64,000 nt of DNA from Bacillus sp. EB01 (GTDB taxonomy: Bacteria; Bacillota; Bacilli; Bacillales; Cytobacillaceae). Shown piece by piece: positions 4,252 through 26,748 of the stretch (its first letter is position 1; the number at the start of each line of letters is the position of its first letter). The notes beneath the pieces were generated by a model, which saw nothing but the letters and a program-made list of their open reading frames with translations, did not search any database and was not told where the DNA came from. Position numbers and translations under genes: made by a program. The stretch covers positions 540,823 through 604,822 of the forward strand of contig NZ_HG964497.1 in assembly GCF_000613125.1 (NCBI RefSeq), written 5' to 3'.

Positions 4252-4480
4252 GTCGCTTTCGCTTTTCTATTTGTCTAGCTACACAAGGAATGCTTCGAAG
4301 CATTCACATCGTACGAAGGAAAAGCTTTTGCTTTTCCAAGGAACTCCCAGCGCCTCGTGTCCTTCGGTCCCCTCCCTACGGTAAGTCAACATCGATTCAC
4401 TTCGTTCATCGTGTTTCCTTTACCTCGTATCGAGGCCCTCCAGGCCATACGGCGCTAACCGGTCGCTTTCGCTTTTCTAT
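4252..4480. repeat. Dispersed non-coding repeat, copy A
   Basis: A 19-nt direct repeat (GTCGCTTTCGCTTTTCTAT) sits at 4252-4270 and 4462-4480 and frames this block. The interior has several hairpins (GAATGCTTCGAAGCATTC, GGAAAAGC/GCTTTTCC) and a segment shared with copy B at 53.9 kb (AAGTCAACATCGA and CTCCAGGCCATACG). The right end overlaps the ywfO stop codon. No open frame of note. Confidence 0.75.
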
Positions 4481-5772
4481 ATCTCAAGAATGCTGCGAAT
4501 CTGTTTTTTTGTATTTTTTTTCGAGGATTCATCTAGCAGAAAGTCTTCAGGAAAATAAAGTTTATGATCGGTACGCCTTTTACCGGAAATCGCATCAACA
4601 ATGGCGGACTCTCTGGACAGCTCCCTGATGTCACCATTTTTCATCAACAATTGGATAGGAAGGCGCTCCTCTTCTTCCCCCGGGCGGTAAAAATCATAAG
4701 GCAAATCAGAGGATGAATCGACGACAAGATAGTAATCCGGGTCAATGCCCGCCTTTCTGAACAGCCCAGTCAATTCAGCCAGCTTCTTGTACTCCTTGGC
4801 CGGATCGAATTCCGAGAATTTGAACAGGTTACGGTTTACGAATCGCCTGCACAAATCACTGAGGATTGCATCGTCTTCCTCCTGCCAAATTTGAAAATAA
4901 TAAAGGATAATTGATTCATCCAATTTCAAATAATCTTCCAAGACAAGGGTGCCTTCAAAGATAGAATAAAAGTGGAGGGGTTCATTTCGAAATGCATAGC
5001 CGCCGTCATGAAGATGCTTGGCACGGTGAAGAATTTTCGTCAGAATTACCTCCGCACCTCGCGAAACCGGATGAAAATACACCTGCCAGTACATCTGATA
5101 CCGGCTCATTATGTAATCTTCAATGGCATGCATACCGCTATGTTTGAAAACTACCTGATCTTCGCGCGGCCGCATAACCCTCAAGATGCGTTCCATATCA
5201 AAAAAGCCATAACTTACACCTGTAAAATAAGCATCCCTCTGCAAGTAATCCATGCGGTCGGCATCAATTTGGCTAGATATGAGCGATATAACCTGTTTTT
5301 TATCCGAAGTTTTCGCAATGATTTCTGCAACCTGTTTAGGAAAATCCTTGCCAACCCTTGAAAGGACTTTGTTCACTTCTGTTTTGCCAAGAATGATTGC
5401 CCCAGTGAATTCTTCGTGGTCCAAATCAAATACTTTTTCGAACGCATGAGAAAACGGCCCGTGCCCGAGGTCATGGAGAAGTGCAGCACAAAGGGTCAAA
5501 AGCCTGTCTTCCTCATTCCATTCAGGGCGCCCTTTAAATACATCATCTGCAATTCTCCTGATTATTTCATAGACACCCAGGGAATGGCTGAATCTGCTAT
5601 GCTCTGCCCCATGGAAGGTCAGGAATGTTGTACCAAGCTGCTTAATCCGTCTGAGGCGCTGGAACTCTCTTGTTCCAATCAGATCCCATATAACTTTGTC
5701 GCGGACATGGACGTAGCGATGGACAGGATCCTTAAAAACTTTCTCTTCATTCAGTTTTTCTGAAAATCCCAT
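4477..5772 (-). CDS. ywfO: HD-domain phosphohydrolase YwfO
   Basis: 431-residue HD-superfamily protein of the YwfO/dGTPase-like type. The metal-binding motif LLHDLGHGPFSHAFE is near residue 95; an upstream His lies in the SRFSHSLGVYE segment near 60, and Asp in IDADRMDYLQRDA near 170. These match HD enzymes that hydrolyse nucleotides to triphosphate or monophosphate products; the exact substrate cannot be read from sequence. The start at MGFSEKLN has a GAGGGGCAGGG-like site. The last codons overlap the end of repeat copy A. Confidence 0.88.
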   Translation of the reverse strand: MGFSEKLNEEKVFKDPVHRYVHVRDKVIWDLIGTREFQRLRRIKQLGTTFLTFHGAEHSRFSHSLGVYEIIRRIADDVFKGRPEWNEEDRLLTLCAALLHDLGHGPFSHAFEKVFDLDHEEFTGAIILGKTEVNKVLSRVGKDFPKQVAEIIAKTSDKKQVISLISSQIDADRMDYLQRDAYFTGVSYGFFDMERILRVMRPREDQVVFKHSGMHAIEDYIMSRYQMYWQVYFHPVSRGAEVILTKILHRAKHLHDGGYAFRNEPLHFYSIFEGTLVLEDYLKLDESIILYYFQIWQEEDDAILSDLCRRFVNRNLFKFSEFDPAKEYKKLAELTGLFRKAGIDPDYYLVVDSSSDLPYDFYRPGEEEERLPIQLLMKNGDIRELSRESAIVDAISGKRRTDHKLYFPEDFLLDESSKKNTKKQIRSILEI

Positions 5773-8263: not shown

Positions 8264-8525
8264 AGTGGTGCCTCCAGTTCAATTATGTGGTGTTATTATA
8301 GCATAATAACGACAAAGCCCATTATGCAGTCAAAAGAAAAAGCATTTTCGGTTTTTAATGTTGGACTAGGTTTTTCCCATAAGATAAAATGTTGAGCAAA
8401 GGAAACATTTTAAACCGAGGGCATATATTAATTTTACAAACGAAGCAGCCCGAAAAAGAGTATCCTCTCCCCGGGTTCTTCAATACTTTATAGAAGTGGT
8501 TTTTACACAAGAAAGGGGAATGAAT

Positions 8526-9326
8526 ATGGAAATCCTTTTCGCCTTTGGACTGACACTGTTTGCAGGTCTTGCAACTGGAATAGGAAGTTTAATGGCATTT
8601 TTTACTTCGACAACAAATACAAAGTTCTTATCAGTGACCCTCGGTTTCTCAGCTGGAGTCATGATTTATGTATCAATGATTGAGATTTTCCAAAAGGCCA
8701 AAATCGCCCTTGTCGCAGAATTGGGAGCAAAAGGAGGAAACTGGGCAACAGTTTCCAGCTTCTTTGGCGGAATTCTCTTGATTGCCTTAATAGACAAATT
8801 AATCCCTAAACAAGGCAACCCACATGAATTGAAAAAGGTTGAAGAGATGCAGCCCGGTGCTATCATAAAAGATCCTGCTTTGTTAAAAATGGGTACATTC
8901 ACTGCGTTGGCCATTGGCATCCACAACTTTCCGGAAGGGATCGCGACATTCACTTCCGCAATCCAGAACCCGGCTCTTGGTGTTGCCATTGCGATTGCAA
9001 TTGCCATTCATAACATTCCTGAGGGAATTGCCGTTTCTGTACCGGTATATTTTGCTACAGGAGATAAGAAGAAAGCATTCAAGCTATCCTTCCTCTCTGG
9101 CTTATCCGAACCGATTGGCGCTCTCGTTGCCTATCTATTTCTTATGCCTTTCCTTAATGACATCATGTTTGGGGTAATCTTTGCGGCCGTTGCCGGCATC
9201 ATGGTCTTCATTTCACTGGACGAATTGCTGCCCGCCGCACGAAAATACGATGAAACCCACCTTCCAATTTATGGCCTCATTGCGGGAATGGCCGTCATGG
9301 CACTCAGCTTGCTCCTTATTATCTAG
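8526..9326 (+). CDS. zupT: ZIP-family zinc/divalent-metal transporter ZupT
   Basis: 266-residue, eight-helix membrane importer. The start at 8526 follows AAAGGGG by 7 nt; the earlier ATG at 8520 is too close to it. Two signature helices carry [10 protein letters not shown] (near residue 135) and [10 protein letters not shown] (near 165), the His/Glu metal site of ZupT proteins. It imports Zn2+ and possibly Fe2+ or Mn2+. No clear Zur or MntR operator was recognised upstream (8264-8525). It is convergent with pta. Confidence 0.92.
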
Positions 9327-14571: not shown

Positions 14572-15591
14572 TCATCCCATAATCTTTTGATAAATTGATT
14601 TTGCATGAGTAAGATCTTTCGTACCGTGAACAAGAGCACGGCCATCATTGAAGATAACCATCCGCTCAGCACCAAGCTCTATCGAAATAAGATAGGGATT
14701 TCCTTTGACAGTATATCCAAGAGATCCGAGCTGCCCTGAGAGCTGCTCAAGCGAAACTTCCCCTTGTGCAGACGGGCGAATTTGCACTGTATCCCGCCCG
14801 CAAAGAACTGTGGTTTTGGTCATATTATCTTTATCAAGATATGGATATGTCGGATGTTCCCCACATGACAGGCAACCAGCAAATTTCGCTTTGCCCATTT
14901 TCATCGATGTATACTCATTGCGCCACATATCAAAGCTTACAAATTCCGTCCTAATTGCATCCCAGTCTTCTACTAGAATTTTTAGAGCCTCAGCGGTCTG
15001 ATGCGAAACAACCATTTGAACAGCCGGTCCAATAATCCCCCCAGTATCACAGGTAAGACCTTGCAAAGGAATTGTTCTCAAAAGGCAATTCAAGCAGGGA
15101 GTGACCCCAGGTATAATCGTAAAACTCATTCCATAACTTCCAACACACGCGCCATAAATCCAGGGAATTTGATATTTCTGCGAAACATCATTTATCGCCA
15201 TTCGGGTTTCGAAATTGTCTGTTGCATCAATGATTAAATCTACACCTTCTGCAAGCTCCTCTAGGAATTCCGGAGTAGCATCACCAATGATAGCCTCTAC
15301 TTCCACATCAGAATTGATTGCTTTTAGTCTTTTTTCAGCCGCAGCTGCCTTCGGTAATTTTTCGGCAACATCTTCTTCTGTATAAAGCTGCTGTCGTTGC
15401 AGGTTGCTCGCCTCGACATAGTCCCGGTCGATAATGGTTAATTTACCGACGCCCGCCCTGGTCAGCACTTCGGCGTTTCCGGAGCCAAGCGCGCCTGTAC
15501 CAATCAGCAATACATGCTTTGAGCTGATTTTCTTCTGCCCTTCATTGCCGATACCTGGAAATAAGATTTGTCTTGAATACCGTTCTGCCAT
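14572..15591 (-). CDS. moeB: MoeB/ThiF-type sulfur-carrier adenylyltransferase
   Basis: 339-residue E1-like enzyme. The ATG at 15591 follows AGGAGG by 8 nt. It has the nucleotide-binding loop IGTGALGSGNAEVLTRAGVG (near residue 30), an R-Q-Q segment (NLQRQQLY), and zinc-site cysteines CLNC (near 172) and CLSC (near 245). It has an extra C-terminal domain of about 75 residues opening with LCGRDTVQIRP and no rhodanese domain. By context it adenylates the MoaD C-terminus for molybdopterin dithiolene synthesis; it could also serve ThiS. It is last in the Moco block, after a hairpin. Confidence 0.85.
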   Translation of the reverse strand: MAERYSRQILFPGIGNEGQKKISSKHVLLIGTGALGSGNAEVLTRAGVGKLTIIDRDYVEASNLQRQQLYTEEDVAEKLPKAAAAEKRLKAINSDVEVEAIIGDATPEFLEELAEGVDLIIDATDNFETRMAINDVSQKYQIPWIYGACVGSYGMSFTIIPGVTPCLNCLLRTIPLQGLTCDTGGIIGPAVQMVVSHQTAEALKILVEDWDAIRTEFVSFDMWRNEYTSMKMGKAKFAGCLSCGEHPTYPYLDKDNMTKTTVLCGRDTVQIRPSAQGEVSLEQLSGQLGSLGYTVKGNPYLISIELGAERMVIFNDGRALVHGTKDLTHAKSIYQKIMG

Positions 15592-15695
15592 CACTTTAGC
15601 CTCCTTTCCGTAATCATCGGAGCTGTTTCTGGTACTATCAGTAAGGCTGCAATGTGAAACTTAGGCTTACTGCCCCTAAATGCGGGATAAACAAA

Positions 15696-15713
15696 GCTTC
15701 CAATGAAGGAAGC
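15696..15713 (-). terminator. Hairpin between moaD and moeB
   Basis: GCTTCC / GGAAGC stem (GGGCTTCC on the minus strand) followed by TTTGTTT. It probably attenuates or ends the fdh-moa transcript before moeB. Confidence 0.6.
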
Positions 15714-15734
15714 CCTTTTAAAAAAGTTTTTAAA

Positions 15735-15968
15735 TCAACCGCCGCTTACCGGCGGGATAAAAGCGATAATATCGCCTTCTTGTATGATTTCTTCATTCGT
15801 GGAAAATTCCTCGTTGATTGCAGCCATAACTGTATCCATTTTCGGAAGGCTGTATTTACCAGCAAGATCCGTCTTCAGTTCCCCCACTGTTTTTCCAGCA
15901 GCGTCTACGGAAATAGACTCCACTCCTGCCGCATCACGTAAATGGGCGAAAAACATCACTTTATTCAT
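15735..15968 (-). CDS. moaD: Molybdopterin synthase small subunit MoaD
   Basis: 77-residue ubiquitin-like sulfur carrier. It ends in PPVSGG: the C-terminal Gly-Gly is adenylated by MoeB and thiocarboxylated before donating sulfur to precursor Z. Its start overlaps the moaE stop (ATGAATAA), consistent with translational coupling and the 1:1 MoaD-MoaE complex. Confidence 0.93.
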   Translation of the reverse strand: MNKVMFFAHLRDAAGVESISVDAAGKTVGELKTDLAGKYSLPKMDTVMAAINEEFSTNEEIIQEGDIIAFIPPVSGG

Positions 15969-16422
15969 TCAAATCACCCTCCTCGGGTTTTCCTTTTGGA
16001 TATGCAATCGTTTCAAGCTGATTTCCGACCCATTCTTCTCCATCTTTCCAATGCTCTTTCTTCCAAATTGGAACAATCTCTTTAATCCGCTCGATTGCAT
16101 AACGATTTGCTTCGTAAGCATCAGCACGGTGTGGTGTCGATACAGCAATGACGACAGCGACATCTGTTATATCAAGGCGGCCAACCCGGTGCGTTATCGC
16201 AACTTTAGATCCTTGCCAGCGCTCCTCAATTTCACGGCCAATTTGCTCAAGTTTCTTCACGGCCATCGCTTCATATGCTTCATATATTAAAAAAAGAGTC
16301 TTTTTGCCATGAGTGAGCTCACGGACTGTTCCAATAAAGGTTGTAATCGCTCCAGCCTCCCGCTGGACAACCTTATCAATGACAGTTTGTATATTGATGG
16401 GTTCCTTTGAGATTTCAAACAT
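15961..16422 (-). CDS. moaE: Molybdopterin synthase catalytic subunit MoaE
   Basis: 153-residue large subunit of molybdopterin synthase. The second of two adjacent ATGs (16422) has the better spacing from GGAGGG. Family landmarks are GAITTFIGTVRE near residue 35, HRVGRLDITDVAVVIAVSTPHRADAYEA (split about residues 90-115) and a Lys-rich C-terminal WKKEHW. It converts cyclic pyranopterin to molybdopterin with MoaD and is coupled to moaD. Confidence 0.94.
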   Translation of the reverse strand: MFEISKEPINIQTVIDKVVQREAGAITTFIGTVRELTHGKKTLFLIYEAYEAMAVKKLEQIGREIEERWQGSKVAITHRVGRLDITDVAVVIAVSTPHRADAYEANRYAIERIKEIVPIWKKEHWKDGEEWVGNQLETIAYPKGKPEEGDLNE

Positions 16423-16486
16423 CATTTACCCTCCATGTACTACCAGGCATATTTGCCTTTCGTATTCACTAGTCTGTCGTCCCTAC

Positions 16487-18406
16487 TCAGCTTATTTTGG
16501 GAACTGCGCCGGCAATGACTTCATAGCCGCCAATTTTTTCGACTTCTCTTCTGAAATCTTCAGATTGAATTACAGAAATAAGCATTCTCCCTTTTTCGCT
16601 TTCAAAAAAGGCGCGAGTCATGACCAAATCATACTCTTCATCGGCGAGCGGAATGAATGATAAGCCCATTGATTTCGCAGCCGGATAGATTCCAAGGCCA
16701 ACTGAATCCTTATCACTTTTCACCTCAGCCGCTACGCTCAAATGGGAAAACATTTCCCTGCTGTATCCAATAATTTTTTCAGGGGAAAGGCCTTTATCCT
16801 TCAGGAGGAGGTCAAACAGAATCCTTGTCCCGGCGCCACGCTGCCTGTTAACAAAATGTGCACCTGTTCTGGCAATGTCTTCAACTGTTTCAATCCCGAG
16901 AGGATTCCCTTCCGCAACGAACCATCCCTGCTTTCTCTTTAGGAATGGATAGAGGACAATGTCCATGTCTGCTAAAAACTTCTTCACGTAAGGCAAGTTG
17001 TATTCCTTTGTCTCAGGATCTAGCAAATGGACTCCAGCAACATGCGCCTCTCCCTTGCGGATTGCCATCAGTCCCGCCATGCTGCCAACATGGGCAGATA
17101 TAACCTTCATATCAGTCCGTTTCCGTTTAATCTGTGACGACAAAAGGTCGATTGTCAGGTCGTGGCTCCCAGTGAAAACAATGCTATTCGTCACTTCTTC
17201 AAGTGGTTTGAGAAGTTCCACCTCTGCGGTATCTCCCTGTTCATACCCAAGTATGTCAGTAGGAACAACGAGCAGTGCATCTGCCCGTACATAGGACATT
17301 GTAACACCTGCCGCCCTGGTCAATGGATTTGCAACATATCGTCCGTTTACATACCCAATATTCATTCGGATAAAGTCTTCCTGGCCCATCGTTGAAACAA
17401 TACGCCGTCCTAATGTTACATCAATTTTCTGTCGTTTTGGCACAGGAATCTGCAAGTATTTGCAGATGAGCGGCTGAACAAACCACTCCATCGCAAGGTA
17501 AGCAGATACCGGATAGCCCGGCACACCTACCACTGGTTTGCCATTAATCTGCCCAAGGATAACCGGTTTGCCTGGCCGAGCGGCAACTCCATGAGTGAAG
17601 ACCTTGCCAATTTCCCCAATTACATGGGCTGTGTAATCCTTCGATCCTGCGGAAGAACCTGCATTTATAACGACAATATCTGCTGTTTCACTTGCTTTTA
17701 CTAGTGCTTCTTTTATATTTTCCGGATTATCCCTTACGATTGGAAATAAATGTGGCTCGCCGCCCCATTCCTTCACAAAGTTCGAAAAAACAATCCCGTT
17801 GAATTCAATGATCTTGCCTGGTGCAGGCTCGTCTTTCACGTCAATGAGCTCATTGCCAGTTGGAATAATGGCAACAGCCGGCTTTTTTATTACCTGAAAC
17901 GCTGTTATCCTCGCTGCAAGCAGGGATCCCAGGTCCGCGGGACGCATTTTATGTCCCTGTGGAAAAATCATTTCCTCCTGAACTATATCCTCACCGATTG
18001 GGCGGATATGCTGCCAAGGAGTAGCTGGTTCAATAATTTCTACTGTATGGTCGTCTATAACATTCACATTTTCTATCATAATAACGGCGTTATACTGAGA
18101 AGGAATCGCATTTCCTGTATCAACATAAACAAATTGATCCCCTAGGGTGAGCCTTAGCGGGTTCTGCTCATGCGCACTAAATGTATCAGCAGCAAGGACT
18201 GCAATACCATCCATAGCCGAAGCGTGGTAATGCGGCATCGATGTGCCGGCAAAAATCGGTTCAGCGGTAATCCTTCCAAGTGCCTCTTCAACGTTTAACC
18301 ATTCCGTTTCCGGGAGCAGGTCGAAGGCAGCAAGTAATTCTTCCCTTGCTACAGCCCTGGGCTTGTCCTCGAGATAAATTTTCCGTTTATACCGCTTCTG
18401 TTCCAT
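16487..18406 (-). CDS. MoeA-like molybdopterin molybdenumtransferase fused to a periplasmic-binding-protein-like domain
   Basis: 639-residue two-part protein. Residues 1-400 are a MoeA-type molybdenum insertase (SAMDGIAV, PTGNEL, AGSSAGSKDYT, GVPGYPVSAY). Residues 400-639 resemble a type-II solute-binding or LysR-effector domain (VFTGSHDLTIDLLSSQI, GSMAGLMAIRKGEAHVAGVH, NRQRGAGTRILFD) often fused to MoeA in Firmicutes and Archaea. There is no signal peptide, so it acts in the cytoplasm. The fused domain may sense molybdate, tungstate or the cofactor; that is inference. It lies 12 nt after a stand-alone moeA. Confidence 0.88.
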   Translation of the reverse strand: MEQKRYKRKIYLEDKPRAVAREELLAAFDLLPETEWLNVEEALGRITAEPIFAGTSMPHYHASAMDGIAVLAADTFSAHEQNPLRLTLGDQFVYVDTGNAIPSQYNAVIMIENVNVIDDHTVEIIEPATPWQHIRPIGEDIVQEEMIFPQGHKMRPADLGSLLAARITAFQVIKKPAVAIIPTGNELIDVKDEPAPGKIIEFNGIVFSNFVKEWGGEPHLFPIVRDNPENIKEALVKASETADIVVINAGSSAGSKDYTAHVIGEIGKVFTHGVAARPGKPVILGQINGKPVVGVPGYPVSAYLAMEWFVQPLICKYLQIPVPKRQKIDVTLGRRIVSTMGQEDFIRMNIGYVNGRYVANPLTRAAGVTMSYVRADALLVVPTDILGYEQGDTAEVELLKPLEEVTNSIVFTGSHDLTIDLLSSQIKRKRTDMKVISAHVGSMAGLMAIRKGEAHVAGVHLLDPETKEYNLPYVKKFLADMDIVLYPFLKRKQGWFVAEGNPLGIETVEDIARTGAHFVNRQRGAGTRILFDLLLKDKGLSPEKIIGYSREMFSHLSVAAEVKSDKDSVGLGIYPAAKSMGLSFIPLADEEYDLVMTRAFFESEKGRMLISVIQSEDFRREVEKIGGYEVIAGAVPKIS

Positions 18407-18418
18407 GTGCTGCTCCCC

Positions 18419-19651
18419 CTACCTTGTTGCCATCACTGGGACATATTCGCCCTGGGCGATGCCCTCTTTTTCTGAAGTGATTTCTACAATCCCATCGCTC
18501 TTCACCAATGTCGTAATTAAACCAGATTTGCCAATGATTGGTTCAGCCCACCATTCGCCTTTCTGTTCAAACAGACTGACCCGAATATAATCGGATCGGC
18601 CGGGACTTGAAGGAATATTTTTTGTGATTCTGGCAAAAATCCTGTCAGGCCTTTTTACGATTGTTTCTCCCTGCAGCCTTTTCAAAATTCTTTCACCGAA
18701 CAGGTTAAAAATAATCATGGCCGATGCTGGATGGCCAGGAAGGCCAATCACGGGTTTCCCGCCAGCGATTGCAAGGATTGTCGGTTTGCCCGGCTTGATG
18801 GATATCCCATGAACAAACACGCCTGGGCTTCCAAGGGATTGAATTACATCGGTTGTATAGTCTTTTGCCCCTACCGAGCTGCCTCCTGATAAAATGAGGC
18901 AATCAACCTGTTCAAATAACTGCATCGCCCTTTGTTGAAATTCTTCAAACGTATCAGGAACAATCCCGCCATAGACCAGGTCAATTCCCCAGTCACGAGC
19001 AAGACCTGCAATCGTCAAATAATTGATATCGCGGATTTGGCCTATTTGCAGTTCAGGTGTTTCAAATGGAACGATTTCATCCCCAGAAGACAAATAGCCA
19101 GCCCGAATACGGCGATACACTGGCACATCCGTTATTCCGAGTGATGCAAGGGCGCCAATTTCCTGCGGCCTCAGTCGAACCCCCTCTTTAAGAAGCAGTT
19201 CACCAACCCTTATATCTTCACCCCTGCGGATGATATTTTCTCCTGGTGCCACCTGTTTATAGATATTTAGAAGGCCGCTGATTTCTTCGCAATGCTCAAT
19301 CATGATTACGCTATCACTTCCAGCGGGAATCATACCCCCAGTCGGCACGTACACAGCTTCACCGAAACCGACCGGTACAGAAGCAGTTTCGCCCATTTTC
19401 ACTTCACCCACGAGAGTCAGGAAACCGGGCATAGACTCGGAGGACCCAAATGTATCTGCCGCTCTGACTGCATAACCATCAACAGTAGACCTATCAAAGC
19501 CTGGAACATCTTCACGCGCCTGCACTGGTTCTGCCAGTACATAGCCAAGTGCTTCCTCAAGCCCACGGTTTTCAACCACAGCAGTTCTCCCCACTTTTTC
19601 GTCAATCAAACTAAAAGTATCCTCTACTGTTTTGACCTTGAAAAATTGCAT
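18419..19651 (-). CDS. moeA: Molybdopterin molybdenumtransferase MoeA
   Basis: 410-residue MoeA of usual length. It catalyses insertion of molybdate into adenylated molybdopterin. Motifs include STVDGYAV (near residue 54), PTGGMIPAG, GGSSVGAKDYT (near 250) and GLPGHPASAM (near 295). It is the middle member of mobA-moeA-moeA fusion. Two MoeA-type proteins in a row suggest division of labour, for example Mo versus W or regulation. Confidence 0.94.
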   Translation of the reverse strand: MQFFKVKTVEDTFSLIDEKVGRTAVVENRGLEEALGYVLAEPVQAREDVPGFDRSTVDGYAVRAADTFGSSESMPGFLTLVGEVKMGETASVPVGFGEAVYVPTGGMIPAGSDSVIMIEHCEEISGLLNIYKQVAPGENIIRRGEDIRVGELLLKEGVRLRPQEIGALASLGITDVPVYRRIRAGYLSSGDEIVPFETPELQIGQIRDINYLTIAGLARDWGIDLVYGGIVPDTFEEFQQRAMQLFEQVDCLILSGGSSVGAKDYTTDVIQSLGSPGVFVHGISIKPGKPTILAIAGGKPVIGLPGHPASAMIIFNLFGERILKRLQGETIVKRPDRIFARITKNIPSSPGRSDYIRVSLFEQKGEWWAEPIIGKSGLITTLVKSDGIVEITSEKEGIAQGEYVPVMATR

Positions 19652-19686
19652 ATACCCCGCTTCCTTTCTCTCTCGGCAGGTAAAGT

Positions 19687-20292
19687 TTACATTCTGCTTT
19701 TTTCTTTTAGTGCTTGTTTCGCAAATTCATACTCTTCAGGGTGATTCATATTGAAAAAAATCTTATCCAAAGCAACTGCAGAATACTTCTGCAACTCTAC
19801 TTCATCAATATAAAAAGTATCTATTTTTCTTAAAAGATCCTTAATCCGGAGATTTCCTCCAATAATACAGGACTCAATCTCTTTTATTATACTCTTTTGG
19901 TACACGGCGAAAAGGGGGTGGTGTGTTCCCCCAAAGACCGGAATAATAGCATCATGATTTCCCACTTGCATAATAAGGGTTTCAGCTAGCTTCCCTGATA
20001 CAAATGGCATGTCGCACGCAACTATTAAATTAGAGTCAAAACTCGAGGCTTTAAGACCGGCATGAATACCTGCCAGCGGCCCCATTCCAGGATATTCGTC
20101 TCCAACTGTCACCACATTCAGGAAACCATATTGTTTTGAATCATTCGTAACAAGAATGATTTCTTCAAAAATGCCAATGAGTTCATCTTTTATTCTTTCA
20201 ATAGTAGGTTTCCCGCCAATTTCCAATAACGCTTTATTCGTTCCCATCCTGCTTGATTTCCCGCCGGATAGTAGGATGGCTGTCGCCTTCAT
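19687..20292 (-). CDS. mobA: Molybdenum cofactor guanylyltransferase MobA
   Basis: 201-residue nucleotidyltransferase that attaches GMP to the molybdenum cofactor to make (bis-)MGD, the form used by formate dehydrogenases. The GTP-binding signature LSGGKSSRMGTNKALLEIGG is at the N-terminus, VACDMPF (Mg-binding Asp) near residue 95. AGGAGGG precedes the start. It lies between fdhE and moeA. Confidence 0.92.
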   Translation of the reverse strand: MKATAILLSGGKSSRMGTNKALLEIGGKPTIERIKDELIGIFEEIILVTNDSKQYGFLNVVTVGDEYPGMGPLAGIHAGLKASSFDSNLIVACDMPFVSGKLAETLIMQVGNHDAIIPVFGGTHHPLFAVYQKSIIKEIESCIIGGNLRIKDLLRKIDTFYIDEVELQKYSAVALDKIFFNMNHPEEYEFAKQALKEKSRM

Positions 20293-20329: not shown

Positions 20330-21142
20330 CTATTGTTGATTCTGTCCTGAACCGCCTCCGGTATGATAACCGTTTTCTTGGGCAATAAAATCAAGGTGGA
20401 GGGTATTCAAATCCAAAATGGCTAAGGACGGTTTTTTAATGAATTGACGTGTATCAACAATCTTGATATAGCCTATGCATTTGTCACATGCCTGGATTTG
20501 GGATGTTGAATCTCCTTCAACAGAAATAAATTTAATTGTGTCATGTTCGTCATTCCCACAGTGGGTGCAAGTGATCCTTTTGTCATGCCAGTGGACCAAA
20601 CAACGCGGACAATATAGCTCTTTCTTTCCTTCTCCTTCTAGTTGCGCAAGTCTGGCAGGCTCCCCGCATACGGGACAGCCGGCACCATGGACGCCAAAGG
20701 AGATACTAGGCTGTGCCTTCTCAGCTGCAAGCTGTAAATATGGGCGAAGCGCGGTCTCTGCTATGAAATGGGGAATCCACTCTTCTACTTCGTGATCTTC
20801 TGCGAAATCGGAGAAATACATATCATTAAATGCTAACGCCTCATCAATCCAGCGTTGTGCAGTGTTTTCATCAATTAACTTGCTTAGAAAAGCGAGCTTT
20901 TCTTCCATACTATTATTATGTTTCACCAACAGAGTCCTTAATTCCTCTATCCACTGTAAAAATAGTGGTATATCAAAATCAAAAATTGCTTGAGATGCCA
21001 CTGGAACCCCTGCCGCCAACGACGCTTTATCTACTTTTATATTGACTGATTGTTCCCCAAGGCTTTCTTTCCATTTTTCCTGAAGGCTGATAATCTCTTT
21101 TTGCAAATTTAAATACTCTTTGGATACGACGGATGTCTTCAA
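20330..21142 (-). CDS. fdhE: Formate dehydrogenase accessory protein FdhE
   Basis: 270-residue maturation factor. The TTG at 21142 is chosen because AGAGGTG lies 7 nt upstream and MKTSVVSKEYLNLQKEI reads as the natural N-terminus. Two zinc-rubredoxin-like knuckles are visible: CPVCGEPAR and CPRCLVHW (near 175-200), then CTHCGNDE and CDKCIGYI (near 205-235). FdhE proteins bind the catalytic subunit of respiratory formate dehydrogenases before export. It lies about 150 nt after fdhC with a hairpin in between. Confidence 0.88.
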   Translation of the reverse strand: MKTSVVSKEYLNLQKEIISLQEKWKESLGEQSVNIKVDKASLAAGVPVASQAIFDFDIPLFLQWIEELRTLLVKHNNSMEEKLAFLSKLIDENTAQRWIDEALAFNDMYFSDFAEDHEVEEWIPHFIAETALRPYLQLAAEKAQPSISFGVHGAGCPVCGEPARLAQLEGEGKKELYCPRCLVHWHDKRITCTHCGNDEHDTIKFISVEGDSTSQIQACDKCIGYIKIVDTRQFIKKPSLAILDLNTLHLDFIAQENGYHTGGGSGQNQQ

Positions 21143-21217
21143 CCCTGTGCACCTCTTTTCATGTATTGTCCTGCATCGGGCCAAGGCCTTCTTTAGGGTT
21201 ATATCTTTAGTTTAGTA

Positions 21218-21290: not shown

Positions 21291-22001
21291 TTATGCACCT
21301 TTGTGTTTTTTCTTGTCCAGCTTATCAAGGTCAGGGAAATTGCCCTTTTCCACTTCTTCATCATACCAGTCACTGTAGTGGCCTTTAGCCCACCACGCAG
21401 GAACCTTACCAGTTACTACGCCAGACCAGCCTGGGCGTGAGTGCTTGTGGATAACACTGAGATATATGTGTCCGACAATAACTGCTATTCCAATCGCAAA
21501 GCCGACATTATGAAGGAAGTATCCCCATTGAATAAGTGCTTTAGGGAAATACTCTGGAAACCACATTGTGAAGCCGGAACCGATGACCAGGATTGCACAG
21601 AAGATCTGGAGAATCGAGTTTATTTTTTCACCTGCGTTAAAGAATGTTTGTTTGACATGATCAAACTTTAAGCCAAACAATTCTTTGACGAAGTTTCCAA
21701 AAAACGCTATGTCCCGCTTTTTCCAAGTTATTAATTCCTTCATCCAGAGCATAAACCACTTCGGGCTGAAGATTAATAGGATAAAGGTCGGCGCTATGAA
21801 AGCAACAGCGAAAATTCTGTGCAGCAAACGTGCGCCCTCAGGGCCCCCGAAAACTGGATAGAGCCAGTCAAAGAATTCGGTATACATAGGCAGAGCCGTA
21901 ATGTATAGAGCAAAGAATGCTATACCATTGATCGCATGGGCCCAGACAAATGCCAATGGGAAACGGCGAACTTTAACATCCCTCAATTGCGGTTTACTCA
22001 T
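21291..22001 (-). CDS. fdhC: Formate dehydrogenase cytochrome b subunit (gamma)
   Basis: 236-residue integral membrane subunit. The ATG at 22001 overlaps the fdhB stop (ATGAGTAA). Four hydrophobic helices are visible (about 17-38, 65-85, 125-150, 165-185), with His residues in FVWAHAING, LLHRIFAV, FLHNVGF and GHIYLSVIHKHSRPGW as candidate haem b ligands. It would pass electrons from FdhB to menaquinone. The C-terminal tail is charged and faces the cytoplasm. Confidence 0.92.
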   Translation of the reverse strand: MSKPQLRDVKVRRFPLAFVWAHAINGIAFFALYITALPMYTEFFDWLYPVFGGPEGARLLHRIFAVAFIAPTFILLIFSPKWFMLWMKELITWKKRDIAFFGNFVKELFGLKFDHVKQTFFNAGEKINSILQIFCAILVIGSGFTMWFPEYFPKALIQWGYFLHNVGFAIGIAVIVGHIYLSVIHKHSRPGWSGVVTGKVPAWWAKGHYSDWYDEEVEKGNFPDLDKLDKKKHKGA

Positions 22002-22824
22002 GGCCTTCACCACCATTCTTATGCTCAGCTTCTTCAGTTTTTTTACTGAAAATCTTATTTGTTACAAATGCACCAACAAGGGCCATGGTAGTTGCACCAA
22101 GCGCCATTTTGCCGAGTGGCTGGGCATAGTCTTTCCAAAGGACTGCGGATGTTGGTACCTTCGGATTTTCAGGCAATCCGTATACAGACGGCTTCTCGGC
22201 AAGTACATACACTGTATGAGTACCGCCAACTCCCTGTGGGTTGTAAACCATTGCATTCGGATAGCGTTCCTTGATTTCAGTCACGCGCTTTTCTGCCTTT
22301 TTGATCATTTCATTTTTGTCGCCAAACTCCATCGAACCCGTATGGCAGACAGTGACACATGCTGGCTGCATGCCTTCTTCGATACGGTCAGTACACATTG
22401 TACATTTGTTGGCCTTACGGTACTCATCACCGTTTTTATCAATATAATTCTTTAGGGAAATCACGTCGAATGGGCAGTTTTGGACGCAATATCCGCAGCC
22501 TACACACTTTTCATGATCGATAACAACTGTTCCAAATTCTGTGTAGGAGATGGCATCTTCAGGACAAACCTTTTCACATGCGGCATCTGCACAGTGGAAG
22601 CATGCAGAATGACGGAACAAGTAATCAAGATTTCCCTTTGAATTTTCATGCTCGATATACTCTAGTACATTCCATGTGTCAGCAGTCACTTTGGCATGGG
22701 ATTGCACGCTTCCCTGGTACGTTACATCCTCCGCAGGAAGGTCATTCCAGTTTTTGCAGGCGACCATGCAAGCCCTACAGCCATCGCATTTGGTGACGTC
22801 AACATATTTTACATATTCCGGCAT
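21994..22824 (-). CDS. fdhB: Formate dehydrogenase iron-sulfur subunit (beta)
   Basis: 276-residue ferredoxin-like electron-transfer subunit. Four cysteine clusters can be read: CDGCRACMVAC, CFHCADAACEKVCP, CVGCGYCVQNCP and CTMC...CVTVC, enough for four [4Fe-4S] centres. A hydrophobic segment near the C-terminus (MALGATTMALVGAFV) probably anchors it beside FdhC. The ATG at 22824 shares one base with the fdhA stop (TAATG) after AGGAGGG, giving tight translational coupling. Confidence 0.95.
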   Translation of the reverse strand: MPEYVKYVDVTKCDGCRACMVACKNWNDLPAEDVTYQGSVQSHAKVTADTWNVLEYIEHENSKGNLDYLFRHSACFHCADAACEKVCPEDAISYTEFGTVVIDHEKCVGCGYCVQNCPFDVISLKNYIDKNGDEYRKANKCTMCTDRIEEGMQPACVTVCHTGSMEFGDKNEMIKKAEKRVTEIKERYPNAMVYNPQGVGGTHTVYVLAEKPSVYGLPENPKVPTSAVLWKDYAQPLGKMALGATTMALVGAFVTNKIFSKKTEEAEHKNGGEGHE

Positions 22825-25808
22825 TAGCCCTTCCTCCTTACGTCGCAAAGGAATGCTTTATACTCAGGAATCGTTGTGTTTGCATCACCGATATGCGGCG
22901 TTAAACGGTTAGCTGAATCCCCGGTTGCGTATCCCTTGTAACCAAAGTTCCATGGCATGCCGATCTGGTGGACCTTTTTGCCTTGGATTGTGTATGGTTT
23001 AAAGCGTTTCGTAATCATCGCATACGCTTCAATTTCACCGCGCGCTGACGTTACAATGACTCTATCCTTGCCCTTGATGCCTTTTTCCTTTGCCAGTTCC
23101 TCACTGATTTCAACAAACATATGGGCAGCAATTTCAGAGAGCCATTCCTGGTTCCTAGTCATTGAACCGGATTGCCAGTGTTCGCTGACACGGTATGTTG
23201 TAGCGACAATTGGAAACTTCTCTTTGTCACCTTTTTTGTTAAATTCTCCGTCAAAAATCTGGACTGCTGGGTTCAAATCCTGGCTTGAGAATGGGTTCTT
23301 GATTGGGCTTTCAAATGGCTCATAATGCTCTGGGAACGGCCCTTCATTCATGGCTGAGGCAAAAATTGACGCAACCTGGCCATTTGCCACCATAATGAAC
23401 GGATTTTTTCCGCCTGGTTCTGATGGGGATACAACTGCCTTGAAGTCTGGCACATCGTCCCCGACCCACTTCTTCTGGGCTGCATCCCAATGGATAACTG
23501 CCTTTTCTTCACTCCATGGCTTGCCGTTCAAATCGGCAGATGCGCGGTTGTACAGGATACGGCGGTTCATTGGCCAAGCGTATGACCAGTTCAGGAAGTG
23601 TTTGCCTCCAGTTTTGTTATCACGGTTTTTGGCACGGTTGCCTTCTTCCGGATAAAATCCACTGTAAATCCAGTTTCCGCTGCAGGTCGAACCATCATCA
23701 AGCAGGTCGCCAAATCCGGCAATCTGTTTTCCGGTTTTTACATCATAGCCATTGATTTCCCGGCATACCAAGTCAATATCAGGGTGATGGCCTTCGCCAA
23801 AATTCCAGTAAAGCGCATTGATTGGCTTTGCAGCTGGGGTGTTTTCATTTTTATAAAGAGCCTTGATCCTTGTTGCGAACTCATGAATGATTTCAAGGTC
23901 GGCTTTTGATTCACCTTTTGGTTCGATTGCTTTCCAGCGGTACTGCATCCAGCGGGAGCTGTTCGAGACAGATCCTTCTTTTTCAAATGAAGCACAGGCA
24001 GGCAGCAGGAAGACTTCCGTTGCAATCTCGTAAGGATTTGCTCCTGTTTCCTTTTGCCAGAACGCGGAGGATTCAGTTTCCCACAGGTCGACTGCGACAA
24101 GCCATTTCAGGTTGCCCAGTGCTTTCTTCTCTTCGCCGGCATTCGGTCCGCCGACAACCGGGTTGGTTCCAAAGAGGAATGCTCCATCAAGTTGTTTGTC
24201 GTACATTGCTTTAAACAGGTTGATATGCGAATAGTTCTTATTGCCTTTTGGCAGATACTGATAGCCAAATTCGTTCTTTTTCGTTGCATTCGGGCCATAC
24301 CAGGCTTTCAGCATACTTACAAGAAACTTAGGCTTATTGCTCCAGTAGCCAGCTTTAGGTGTTTCTTTTTCGTTGTATCCCGCCAGTGTGCCGTGTTCAG
24401 GCACAGAAGATTTTGGTGCCCCAACATAGCCTGGGAGATCCCCGTAAAGGAGACCAAAGTCAGTTGATCCCTGAACGTTTGATTCTCCGCGCATTGCAGC
24501 CAAGCCGCTTCCCGGAATACCAACGTTACCCAATAGAAGCTGCAAGATTGCCATTGCACGCACGTTTTGCGAACCAACTGTATGCTGCGTGATGCCCATT
24601 GCGTACATGATGACGCCAGATTTTCCAACTTTCCCTGTTGAACAAAATGCTTCGCAGACTTTTAGGAAATCTTCTTTAGGAGTTCCTGTGGCTTCAACGA
24701 TTTTGTCGACTGTATAGCGGGAATAATGTTTCTTCATCAACTGATAGACAGAACGCGGATGTTCAAGTGTCAAATCCTTGACGAAGTTGTCATCTTTGTC
24801 TTTTTCAAAAGCCCAAAGGGTTTTATCATAGGACCTTTTAGTTTCATCATAGCCAGAGAATAGGCCATCGTTAAAATCATAGCTATCTTTCACAATGAAA
24901 GAAGCGTTTGTATAGTTAGCAACATACTCTTTGTGGATTAGGTTTTTTTCCATTGCATAATTGACCATCCCAGCCAGGAATGCGATATCTGTTCCGGACC
25001 GAAGCGGCGCATAGACGTCAGCCAATGCTGAAGACCTTGTAAAGCGTGGGTCGACAGAGACAATTTTTCCTCCATTTTCCCTTGCCTTTGTCAGCCACCT
25101 GAACGAAATCGGATGGTTCTCCGCAGGGTTTGCTCCCATAATTAACGCACAATCAGTATATTGCAGATCATTCCAATGGTTAGTCATTGCTCCACGACCA
25201 AATGTAGGTGCCAGACCGGCAACCGTAGAACTATGTCATATTCGTGCCTGGTGTTCGAGATATACGACGCCAAGCCCTCTCATCAATTTGGCAAGAAGAT
25301 AAACTTCTTCGTTGTCGAGCGCGGCACCGCCTACGCTAGCAATTCTCTCTGTTTTATTAACTGTCATACCATCTTCTTTTACAACAAAAGAAGCATCGCG
25401 GGTTTCTTTCACACGCTTTGTGATTGTTTCATACATCCATTCCCAGTCTTTTTCTTCCCATGTATCGCTGCCCGGTGCGCGGTAGCGCGGCTTTAATACA
25501 CGCTTTTCTGAGGTATAAAGCTGTCTCAGGGTTGTTCCCTTTGAGCAAAGTTTTCCTTCGTTGATTGGGTTGTCTGGATCCCCTTCTGTGTATACAACAG
25601 TGTTGTCCTTTGTGTGGACAAGGATTCCGCACCCTACGCCGCAATAGCAGCAAATGGTTGGTGTTACTTTTGCATTGGCTGTCTTCAGCTCTTTCGATTG
25701 TGCATGGGCTTTCTTTTCGTCAAACCCAAGCTCAACGATGGCCAATGTAGCTGCTGTAGCGCCTGACAATTTCAAGAACTGCCTGCGATTCAGGTTGATT
25801 TCAACCAT
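22824..25808 (-). CDS. fdhA: Formate dehydrogenase catalytic subunit, selenocysteine-containing (UGA at 25236-25238)
   Basis: 994 residues when the in-frame TGA is read as selenocysteine (Sec191). Both halves are needed: residues 1-190 hold a Tat signal (NRRQFLKLSG at 7-16) and the [4Fe-4S] ligands C53, C56, C60 and C88. The larger part from 192 starts HSSTVAGLAPTFGRGAMTNH, which continues E. coli FdnG right after its Sec196, and carries the bis-MGD domains. Length is close to FdnG (1015). A SECIS-like hairpin follows the TGA. The protein oxidises formate on the outer face with FdhB-FdhC. Gene finders will split it at 25236. Confidence 0.93.
25207..25224 (-). promoter_or_regulatory. Bacterial SECIS element in fdhA mRNA
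   Basis: On the minus strand GGUUGCCGGUCUGGCACC starts 11 nt after the UGA. It folds as GGU-[bulged U]-GCC, loop GGUCU, GGC-ACC. E. coli fdhF has the same 11-nt spacing, the bulged U and the GGUCU loop recognised by SelB; the present stem has one more pair. Confidence 0.88.
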
Positions 25809-25898: not shown

Positions 25899-26663
25899 TC
25901 AATTCGATTCTGCAGCAACAACCGATTCTCGAAGGTCACTGTGGACCCTGCCTGCAGTAGTATAAATTACAGCCATTTTCCCCCTTAAATAGCCTACTAC
26001 TTCTATATTTAAATATTTGGCTAACTGGATGGCCTGCTTTGTTGCAGCTGTCCTTGAGCCGATGACGGCGAAGCCAAATTTTGCTGCCTTGGATAGCATT
26101 TCATATGACACGCGTCCTGTAGTAAGGAGAATCAAATCTTCCGGATTAAGCCGATTGCGAATTGCATGGCCAATGATTTTGTCGACAGCATTGTGTCTTC
26201 CGATATCTTCCCGGATCTCCATATTGCCAGCTTCATCAACGATGCACGCTCCATGCATGCCTCCTGTTTCGAGGTAGAGCTCCGAAGCCTGCGCAAATTC
26301 AGCGCGTTTCTTCAATAAATAACTTAAAGGGTAGTTCTTAGTTGAATTATTTCTTCCAAATTCCTTTACATCTGTCATTGAGAAGAAGGTTACTCCACGG
26401 CCGCACCCAGCAGTGTAATGCTTCTTTTTTGAAAACATCTTGTCTCCATCAAAAGAATTATTCAATGTGACCCCGAGCGTTGCCATACCTTCGTGAAACT
26501 CCACTTTCTCAACATCATCCGCTATGTCAATCATCCCTTCCGAGAAGAGATAGCCATACACCCAGTCTTCTAAATCAGATTTCGTAAGCTGAAAAACGGC
26601 AATTTCATAACCGTTGACTGTAAGATTGATCGGATATTCCTCAGGACAGCTTTTTCTGTTCAT
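25899..26663 (-). CDS. fdhD: Formate dehydrogenase sulfurtransferase FdhD
   Basis: 254-residue protein that passes sulfur from a cysteine desulfurase to the Mo-bisPGD cofactor of formate dehydrogenase. The ATG at 26663 has AAGGAGG 6 nt upstream; the ATG at 26708 lacks one. Landmarks are NGYEIAVFQLT, EGMIDIADDVEKVEF, the loop TAGCGRGVTFF (near residue 100), GGMHGACIVDEAGN and EDIGRHNAVDKIIG. The loop has one Cys, not the CxxC of E. coli FdhD. It is first in the operon, 90 nt before fdhA. Confidence 0.93.
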   Translation of the reverse strand: MNRKSCPEEYPINLTVNGYEIAVFQLTKSDLEDWVYGYLFSEGMIDIADDVEKVEFHEGMATLGVTLNNSFDGDKMFSKKKHYTAGCGRGVTFFSMTDVKEFGRNNSTKNYPLSYLLKKRAEFAQASELYLETGGMHGACIVDEAGNMEIREDIGRHNAVDKIIGHAIRNRLNPEDLILLTTGRVSYEMLSKAAKFGFAVIGSRTAATKQAIQLAKYLNIEVVGYLRGKMAVIYTTAGRVHSDLRESVVAAESN

Positions 26664-26706
26664 TGTCCTTCCTCCTTTTCCGTCCGGCACCATTTCACCT
26701 ATCTTC

Positions 26707-26748
26707 ATTGTAGAAACCTCGGCCGAATACAGCAGTGATATTTATCAC
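26707..26748 (-). promoter_or_regulatory. Candidate Fnr-dependent promoter of the fdh operon
   Basis: GTGATATTTATCAC at 26735-26748 matches GTGA-N6-TCAC, the Crp/Fnr core. TACAAT at 26712-26707 on the minus strand is a good -10. A start near 26700 would put the palindrome centre at -41.5, the class II activator position. No good -35 is needed in such promoters. Inferred from sequence only. Confidence 0.6.

Follow-up and report, generated by a model that had tools for sequence, protein, structure and literature searches.

A passage of a 2026 review describes FdhA as the bacterial selenoprotein family with the widest distribution, and the same source states that a sizeable number of selenoproteins carry annotation in RefSeq and GenBank (PMC13188914). 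It is also listed first among selenoproteins, with 822 organisms, in a section of a second paper (PMC5029168), and three Firmicutes/Bacillales selenoproteins were tabulated in 2006 in part of a third (PMC1794560). In the RefSeq record of E. coli, fdhF and fdnG are each given as one CDS across the UGA. Within a limited collection of literature, nothing was found on selenoprotein together with Neobacillus or on selenocysteine together with Mesobacillus, nor anything joining selenocysteine, selenoprotein, formate dehydrogenase, Bacillus and Bacillaceae. We analyzed here a formate dehydrogenase operon in a stretch of 64,000 nucleotides from Bacillus sp. EB01 (hereafter the window), along with the complete genome from which it was taken (a single contig, C1, of 5,282,259 bases).

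The in-frame UGA of fdhA and its operon

Two minus-strand frames, 25236-25808 and 22824-25187, were found to share one register with a single TGA at 25236-25238 between them, which agrees with the claim of the initial annotation that they are joined by one TGA with no frameshift. The UGA is codon 191 of 994, and no other stop occurs in the frame. When the UGA was read as an amino acid, FdhA scored 1266.4 bits against TIGR01553 (cut-off 814.2) over residues 6-991, and the Pfam domains Molybdop_Fe4S4, Molybdopterin, Molydop_binding and TAT_signal were above their cut-offs, the twin-arginine signal (PF10518) reaching 25.6 bits with a cut-off of 22.7. Judged from this profile match, the predicted alpha subunit belongs securely to TIGR01553. 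The coordinates of all features are collected in Table 1.

Table 1. Features of the window and of the complete genome (contig C1) considered in this study.
Feature	Position	Strand	Details
fdhA, formate dehydrogenase-N type alpha subunit	22824..25808	-	994 aa plus stop, single in-frame UGA
In-frame UGA, predicted selenocysteine codon	25236..25238	-	residue 191; alignment with 1h0h, E. coli fdnG motif
bSECIS apical hairpin	25207..25224	-	nt +12 to +29 after UGA; Rfam SECIS_3, covariation, synonymous constraint
Full Rfam SECIS_3 (RF01989) match with lower stem	25183..25241	-	model 1-59 of 59
fdhB, iron-sulphur subunit	21994..22824	-	TIGR01582 230.7 bits, below cut-off 334.7; 4Fe-4S domains
fdhC, cytochrome b (gamma)	21291..22016	-	TIGR01583 78.4 (cut-off 115.85); PF01292 62.6 (cut-off 30.1)
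fdhE-like accessory protein	20330..21184	-	TIGR01562 56.6 bits, below cut-off 187.65
fdhD, accessory sulphurtransferase, upstream of fdhA	25899..26708	-	TIGR00129 161.3, cut-off 140.9
Mo cofactor genes MoeB/ThiF, MoaE, MoeA with fused domain, MoeA, MobA	14572..20292	-	
tRNA-Sec (selC)	C1:253677-253769		65.2 bits, cut-off 47; anticodon tca
SelA	C1:1136197-1137582	minus	572 bits
SelD	C1:1138168-1139094 (L017:8133-9200)	opposite strand, divergent from selA	399.5 bits
SelB	about C1:3313.7 kb		SelB-wing_3 63.5 bits; TIGR00475 359.4 bits, cut-off 242.25
Second formate dehydrogenase alpha, 685 aa	C1:4509217-4511271 (L021:1495-3552)		TIGR01591 800.5 bits, cut-off 666.25

Among the solved chains, 1h0h chain A gave the best score with FdhA (1038.3 bits). 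In the alignment with 1h0h, residue 191 stood opposite its modified residue X, which we take to be selenocysteine, and the names given by the depositors to other high-scoring solved chains say that these contain selenocysteine. The residues around the UGA read QARI-U-HSSTVAGLAPTFGRGAMTNHW here and QARV-U-HGPTVASLAPTFGRGAMTNHW around the UGA at codon 196 of E. coli fdnG, in line with the alignment to the Sec site of FdnG that had been proposed. In the predicted Sec site of FdhA (ARI-U-HSST), the UGA stands at the active-site position and is directly followed by a His. The motif UHxP, given for the selenocysteine form of formate dehydrogenase in a passage of the 2026 review (PMC13188914), is not literal here, where the residues are UHSS.

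The gene fdhD lies before fdhA, whereas FdhB, FdhC and FdhE are encoded after it and the molybdenum cofactor genes follow downstream; the ATG of fdhB overlaps the stop of fdhA (TAATG). FdhD also matched NF001943 at 174.5 bits, below the cut-off of 269. From the cofactor genes, MoeB/ThiF (NF009123) and the fused MoeA (NF011068) were over their cut-offs and MoaE, MoeA and MobA below theirs. With regard to the respiratory complex, the domain Form-deh_trans (PF09163) reached 14.0 bits with a cut-off of 22.1. Since the beta and gamma matches were under the curated cut-offs, a complex of the FdnGHI type is likely, not proven, on these profile scores.

The stop in fdhA is most likely read as selenocysteine, in which case the gene is intact and no pseudogene. 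The remark of the initial annotation that an automatic pipeline would report a truncated or split gene stands on weaker ground, given the single CDS of fdhF and of fdnG in the E. coli record. A related explanation is that the UGA serves mainly as a regulated stop, with termination after 190 residues when selenium is lacking and full-length enzyme only when it is supplied. Competition with termination belongs to the known mechanism, and a passage of one paper gives an in vivo recoding efficiency of 30-40% and a requirement for sufficient selenium (PMC4513850). The 190-residue fragment, however, would comprise the signal and the cluster domain but no more than the beginning of the molybdopterin domain, and no sign of a role for it was seen in our analysis. 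We consider a mainly regulatory function unlikely, and it refines the reading of codon 191 as selenocysteine rather than opposing it.

The hairpin downstream of the UGA

The UGA is followed by 11 nt, CAUAGUUCUAC, and then by GGUUGCCGGUCUGGCACC, which forms the pairs 12-29, 13-28, 15-27, 16-26, 17-25 and 18-24 (counted in nt after the UGA) with a bulged U14 at 25222 and the loop GGUCU at 25213-25217. The initial annotation had likened this element to the SECIS of E. coli fdhF; the 11-nt spacing and the GGUCU loop stood as quoted, but the register of the stem was that of fdnG and not of fdhF. The covariance search that it had suggested gave a match to Rfam SECIS_3 of 61 bits (E 7.5e-13), 2 bits short of the gathering score of 63, and for this reason an Rfam scan of the whole window at gathering thresholds listed no family. 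The match exceeds chance, and we regard the hairpin as a bSECIS on evidence besides the gathering score, not as a gathered member of the Rfam family.

The constraints given for a bSECIS in part of the 2026 review are an apical loop of 3-9 nt, an upper stem of 4-16 bp, a G at loop position 1 or 2, a distance from UGA to loop of 16-37 nt and a minimum free energy of <= -7.5 kcal/mol (PMC13188914). With a loop of 5 nt, six pairs and one bulged U (24-nt fold and counted structure), a loop GGUCU that starts 18 nt past the UGA, and energies of -8.6 (43 nt) and -7.7 (24 nt), the hairpin of fdhA falls within all of these limits. Compared with shuffled sequences, the folding energy showed no significant excess (z -0.06 for 43 nt and -1.69 for 24 nt), and in a 48-nt fold only the top three pairs of the hairpin were kept while the lower pairs were rearranged. 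Folding energy was for these reasons not counted as evidence; the support for the hairpin comes from conservation and covariation.

Conservation was followed by aligning the codons of 65 family loci, that of the window among them, which comprised the 30 best FdhA search matches and 35 of 40 further loci; the other five (L084-L088), distant paralogs that also have TGA, were set aside. The codon at the Sec site was TGA in 63 loci, TGT in one and TGC in one, and the stretch ACGGTTGCCGGTCTGGC was identical in all 63 TGA loci. The initial annotation had named relatives with a plain stop and nothing conserved downstream as the finding that would speak against it; what the relatives carry instead is UGA with the hairpin core in 63 of 65 cases and Cys in the other two. 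Third-position identity at conserved amino acids had its maximum over the hairpin (58 dereplicated sequences), the 12 top-ranked of 291 segments of 11 codons each beginning at codons -3 to +8 from the Sec codon.

A similar picture came from organism-labelled loci (the best 80 of 312), which overlap the family genome set and are not an independent sample: 79 have TGA, each with the hairpin core, and one (L157) has TGC. Three of these loci are clostridial; the related fdhA loci belong to Neobacillus, Mesobacillus, Cytobacillus, Evansella, Bacillus sp. and others, which places the host within the Bacillaceae in the broad sense and apart from B. subtilis. Protein identity to FdhA in these 80 was 58-87%, and the highest values (84-87%) were obtained with Neobacillus piezotolerans and Bacillus sp. 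FJAT-27445, FJAT-27245 and FJAT-27225, a ranking from which entries of the own genome, or of one very close to it, may be missing.

Covariation was scored on 18 rows, hand-picked for diversity from about 54 distinct stretches and including the window, the second formate dehydrogenase gene of the same genome, E. coli fdnG and distant paralogs. Standard pairs filled 94.4% of the 108 pair cells, and 12 cells were changed on both sides, compared with a shuffle mean of 1.9. Five forms of pair 15-27 (UA, GC, CG, AU, UG) and three of pair 18-24 (CG, UA, AU) were seen. The covariation score was 0.397, as against 0.091 in shuffles (0/500 as high) and <= 0.088 in slid structures. The two lowest pairs were each unformed in 3/18 rows, and the number of pairs with changes on both sides (three), one of five measures, was equalled by 36/500 shuffles. 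As the rows were hand-picked and also served in part to derive the structure, this result leans toward the proposed structure.

A SECIS model of our own was made from the same 18 rows. It scored fdhA of the window at 69.5 bits and the second formate dehydrogenase at 50.5 bits, values that arise by construction and are no independent evidence, since both loci are among the rows of the model. When the whole genome was searched with it (150 of 1453 candidates scored), a third match appeared in the window at 8551-8588 on the plus strand (24.7 bits, E 0.035). It lies inside an open 276-aa frame, 8496-9326, worked out by hand, and was taken as chance because seven model positions are absent and the UGA is out of frame.

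Selenocysteine machinery, family distribution and Cys paralogs

The initial annotation had reasoned that the host must carry selA, selB, selC and selD elsewhere, and had regarded the absence of selB and selC from the complete genome as decisive against it. All four genes were found in the own genome, selB and selC among them, and the Sec-decoding trait is in this way complete. Beside tRNA-Sec lie two XerC/XerD-like tyrosine recombinase genes (L011:3119-4111, plus strand, and 4474-5577, minus strand), both below family cut-offs; a search of L011 (14 kb) for a second exact copy of the terminal 14-25 nt of selC, which would point to an inserted element, gave no match. The gene directly before selB (L010:6066-6896) resembles a type II pantothenate kinase (229.1 bits, cut-off 234).

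Two further genes of this genome contain a UGA in frame. The SelD gene has one such TGA (KAG-U-GCK), for which no SECIS match was obtained in Rfam (E up to 10) or with the 18-row model; a 5-bp stem with the loop UGA folds there (z -1.16), a hairpin that differs in type from that of the formate dehydrogenase genes. The second formate dehydrogenase has a UGA at the corresponding residue (NRT-U-HAPSVAGLA), followed by a hairpin with the same GGUCU loop and a six-pair stem that folds without the bulged U; it also gave no Rfam SECIS match at E up to 10. Next to the gene of this second enzyme lies one that resembles a sensor histidine kinase gene. The UGA of fdhA, of selD and of the second formate dehydrogenase was kept in 8/8 genomes of the genus.

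The trait is widespread in the family. Among 193 genomes, SelB was found in 170, tRNA-Sec in 171 and FdhA in 121, the last count being taken at E up to 1e-100 and including G027, whose sole match has 46% identity; three genomes in the SelB tally and two in the tRNA-Sec tally were assigned by elimination. SelB was present in 119 and tRNA-Sec in 120 of the 121 genomes with FdhA. The exceptions, each with a UGA-containing fdhA, are G006 (88% complete), with no SelB match, and G078 (66% complete), with neither SelB nor tRNA-Sec, gaps that are most simply taken as missing data. One (G078) of the 20 genomes without SelB and tRNA-Sec had FdhA, the 20 including two assigned by elimination, and the 12 listed genomes of a single genus (g20), which lack both, were not among the FdhA matches. 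SelB was retained in 51 of the 72 genomes without FdhA of the TIGR01553 type, where the trait is presumably maintained by other selenoproteins. More than one copy of tRNA-Sec was listed in 15 of 171 genomes (counted by eye). At G089:C1:4542231-4545207 (L094) the fdhA match consisted of two overlapping segments and contained additional stops, which may reflect decay of this copy or a frameshift in it.

The control genome of B. subtilis gave no match for SelB or SelA, nor for tRNA-Sec when E was limited to 1e-9. At these stricter thresholds, the result agrees with the remark of the initial annotation that B. subtilis itself is without the selenocysteine system; with a looser tRNA-Sec search 14/14 control genomes matched, five of them, not named individually, over the cut-off.

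Cys copies of FdhA were found at L060 (genome G184) and L075 (G006), and each of these genomes also lists a Sec copy. L157, the TGC locus mentioned above, appears to be the same gene as L075. In both Cys paralogs the loop and the stem of the hairpin are altered; SECIS_3 scored them at 27.5 and 25.4 bits, compared with 61 for fdhA of the window, and our own model at 27.0 and 24.9 bits, near the 24.7 bits of the chance match at 8551-8588. They thus provide a natural control for the SECIS of fdhA. The two form one clade among the Sec copies with support of 100/99 (midpoint-rooted tree, 45 rows), and since both fall in one clade, the simplest history would be a single Sec-to-Cys change after duplication, followed by decay of the hairpin. 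The assembly of G006 looks like a metagenome bin, which makes the Sec/Cys pairing in this genome less sure, as it could be an effect of binning. The own genome of the window has one FdhA of the TIGR01553 kind, in the Sec form.

We tentatively suggest that in such duplicated fdhA genes a single switch of one copy from Sec to Cys preceded the loss of its SECIS, with a Sec copy retained in the same genome, yielding selenium-dependent and selenium-free isoenzymes that are switched by the selenium supply. This seems to us possible though rather doubtful; if true, some Bacillaceae may alternate between the two forms of FdhA with the selenium at hand.

These results also bear on whether UGA 191 might be read by a near-cognate or suppressor tRNA as some other amino acid, with no selenium involved. 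UGA does show some leak-through in general, but this genome has the full sel gene set, the hairpin is conserved at synonymous sites and has decayed in both Cys copies, and the UGA stands at the position of the modified residue of the solved relative, and we hold such a reading to be very improbable. A nonsense mutation, a pseudogene or a sequencing error would equally leave a TGA that splits the fdhA frame, but since 63 of 65 family loci share this TGA (the other two have Cys), as do 79 of the best 80 of 312, and the frame is free of other stops, the chance of this is practically negligible. The UGA of the relatives, the sel genes and the conserved hairpin together argue for fdhA as a selenoprotein gene and no pseudogene, as had been proposed at the outset.

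Proposed mechanism and comparison with known systems

We are close to certain of the overall explanation, in which the operon would encode an exported formate dehydrogenase of FdnGHI layout that receives selenocysteine at UGA 191 through the hairpin and SelB. By analogy with the known mechanism and with the family, FdhA would be the Mo/W-pterin catalytic subunit, exported by the twin-arginine route, of a membrane-bound respiratory enzyme. When the ribosome reaches codon 191, the hairpin 11 nt downstream of the UGA would bind SelB loaded with Sec-tRNA(Sec), and selenocysteine would be inserted instead of termination. SelA would make the Sec-tRNA with selenophosphate from SelD, whose own gene has an in-frame UGA. 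Sec191 would lie at the position of the residue that presumably ligates the metal in solved relatives. Formate would be oxidized outside the membrane, as expected from the family, and the electrons would pass from FdhA to FdhB, then to the cytochrome b FdhC and on to menaquinone.

The arrangement is well known, and with no new kind of Sec decoding it leaves the understanding of selenocysteine decoding unchanged. Its value lies in fixing the reading of fdhA as a predicted intact selenoprotein gene in a group related to B. subtilis.

The operon shares with E. coli FdnGHI the catalytic subunit of TIGR01553 (946.8 bits with 1kqf) and the order of its beta and gamma partners. It differs in that the beta and gamma subunits fall below the NCBIfam cut-offs, fdhD adjoins fdhA and the Mo-cofactor genes follow. 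The SECIS of E. coli fdnG has the same hairpin register, unpaired U14, 5-nt loop and UGA motif, whereas its loop is AGUCU in place of GGUCU and pairs 15-27 and 18-24 differ. The SECIS of E. coli fdhF (GGUUGC-AGGUCU-GCACC) agrees in the 11-nt spacing, the GGUU start and the GGUCU in the loop, but the hairpin of the window is one stem pair longer, with a loop of 5 nt; FdhF itself is the smaller formate dehydrogenase H, and 1aa6 scored 176.1 bits with the FdhA described here. The top scores among solved chains (1013.9-1038.3 bits) belonged to Sec-containing FdhA of the 1h0h and 6sdr kind, which we take to come from Desulfovibrio; to our knowledge, these solved enzymes are without the cytochrome b subunit found in the operon of the window. 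In comparison with FdhA of other Bacillaceae, differences at the codon level flank an unchanged hairpin core.
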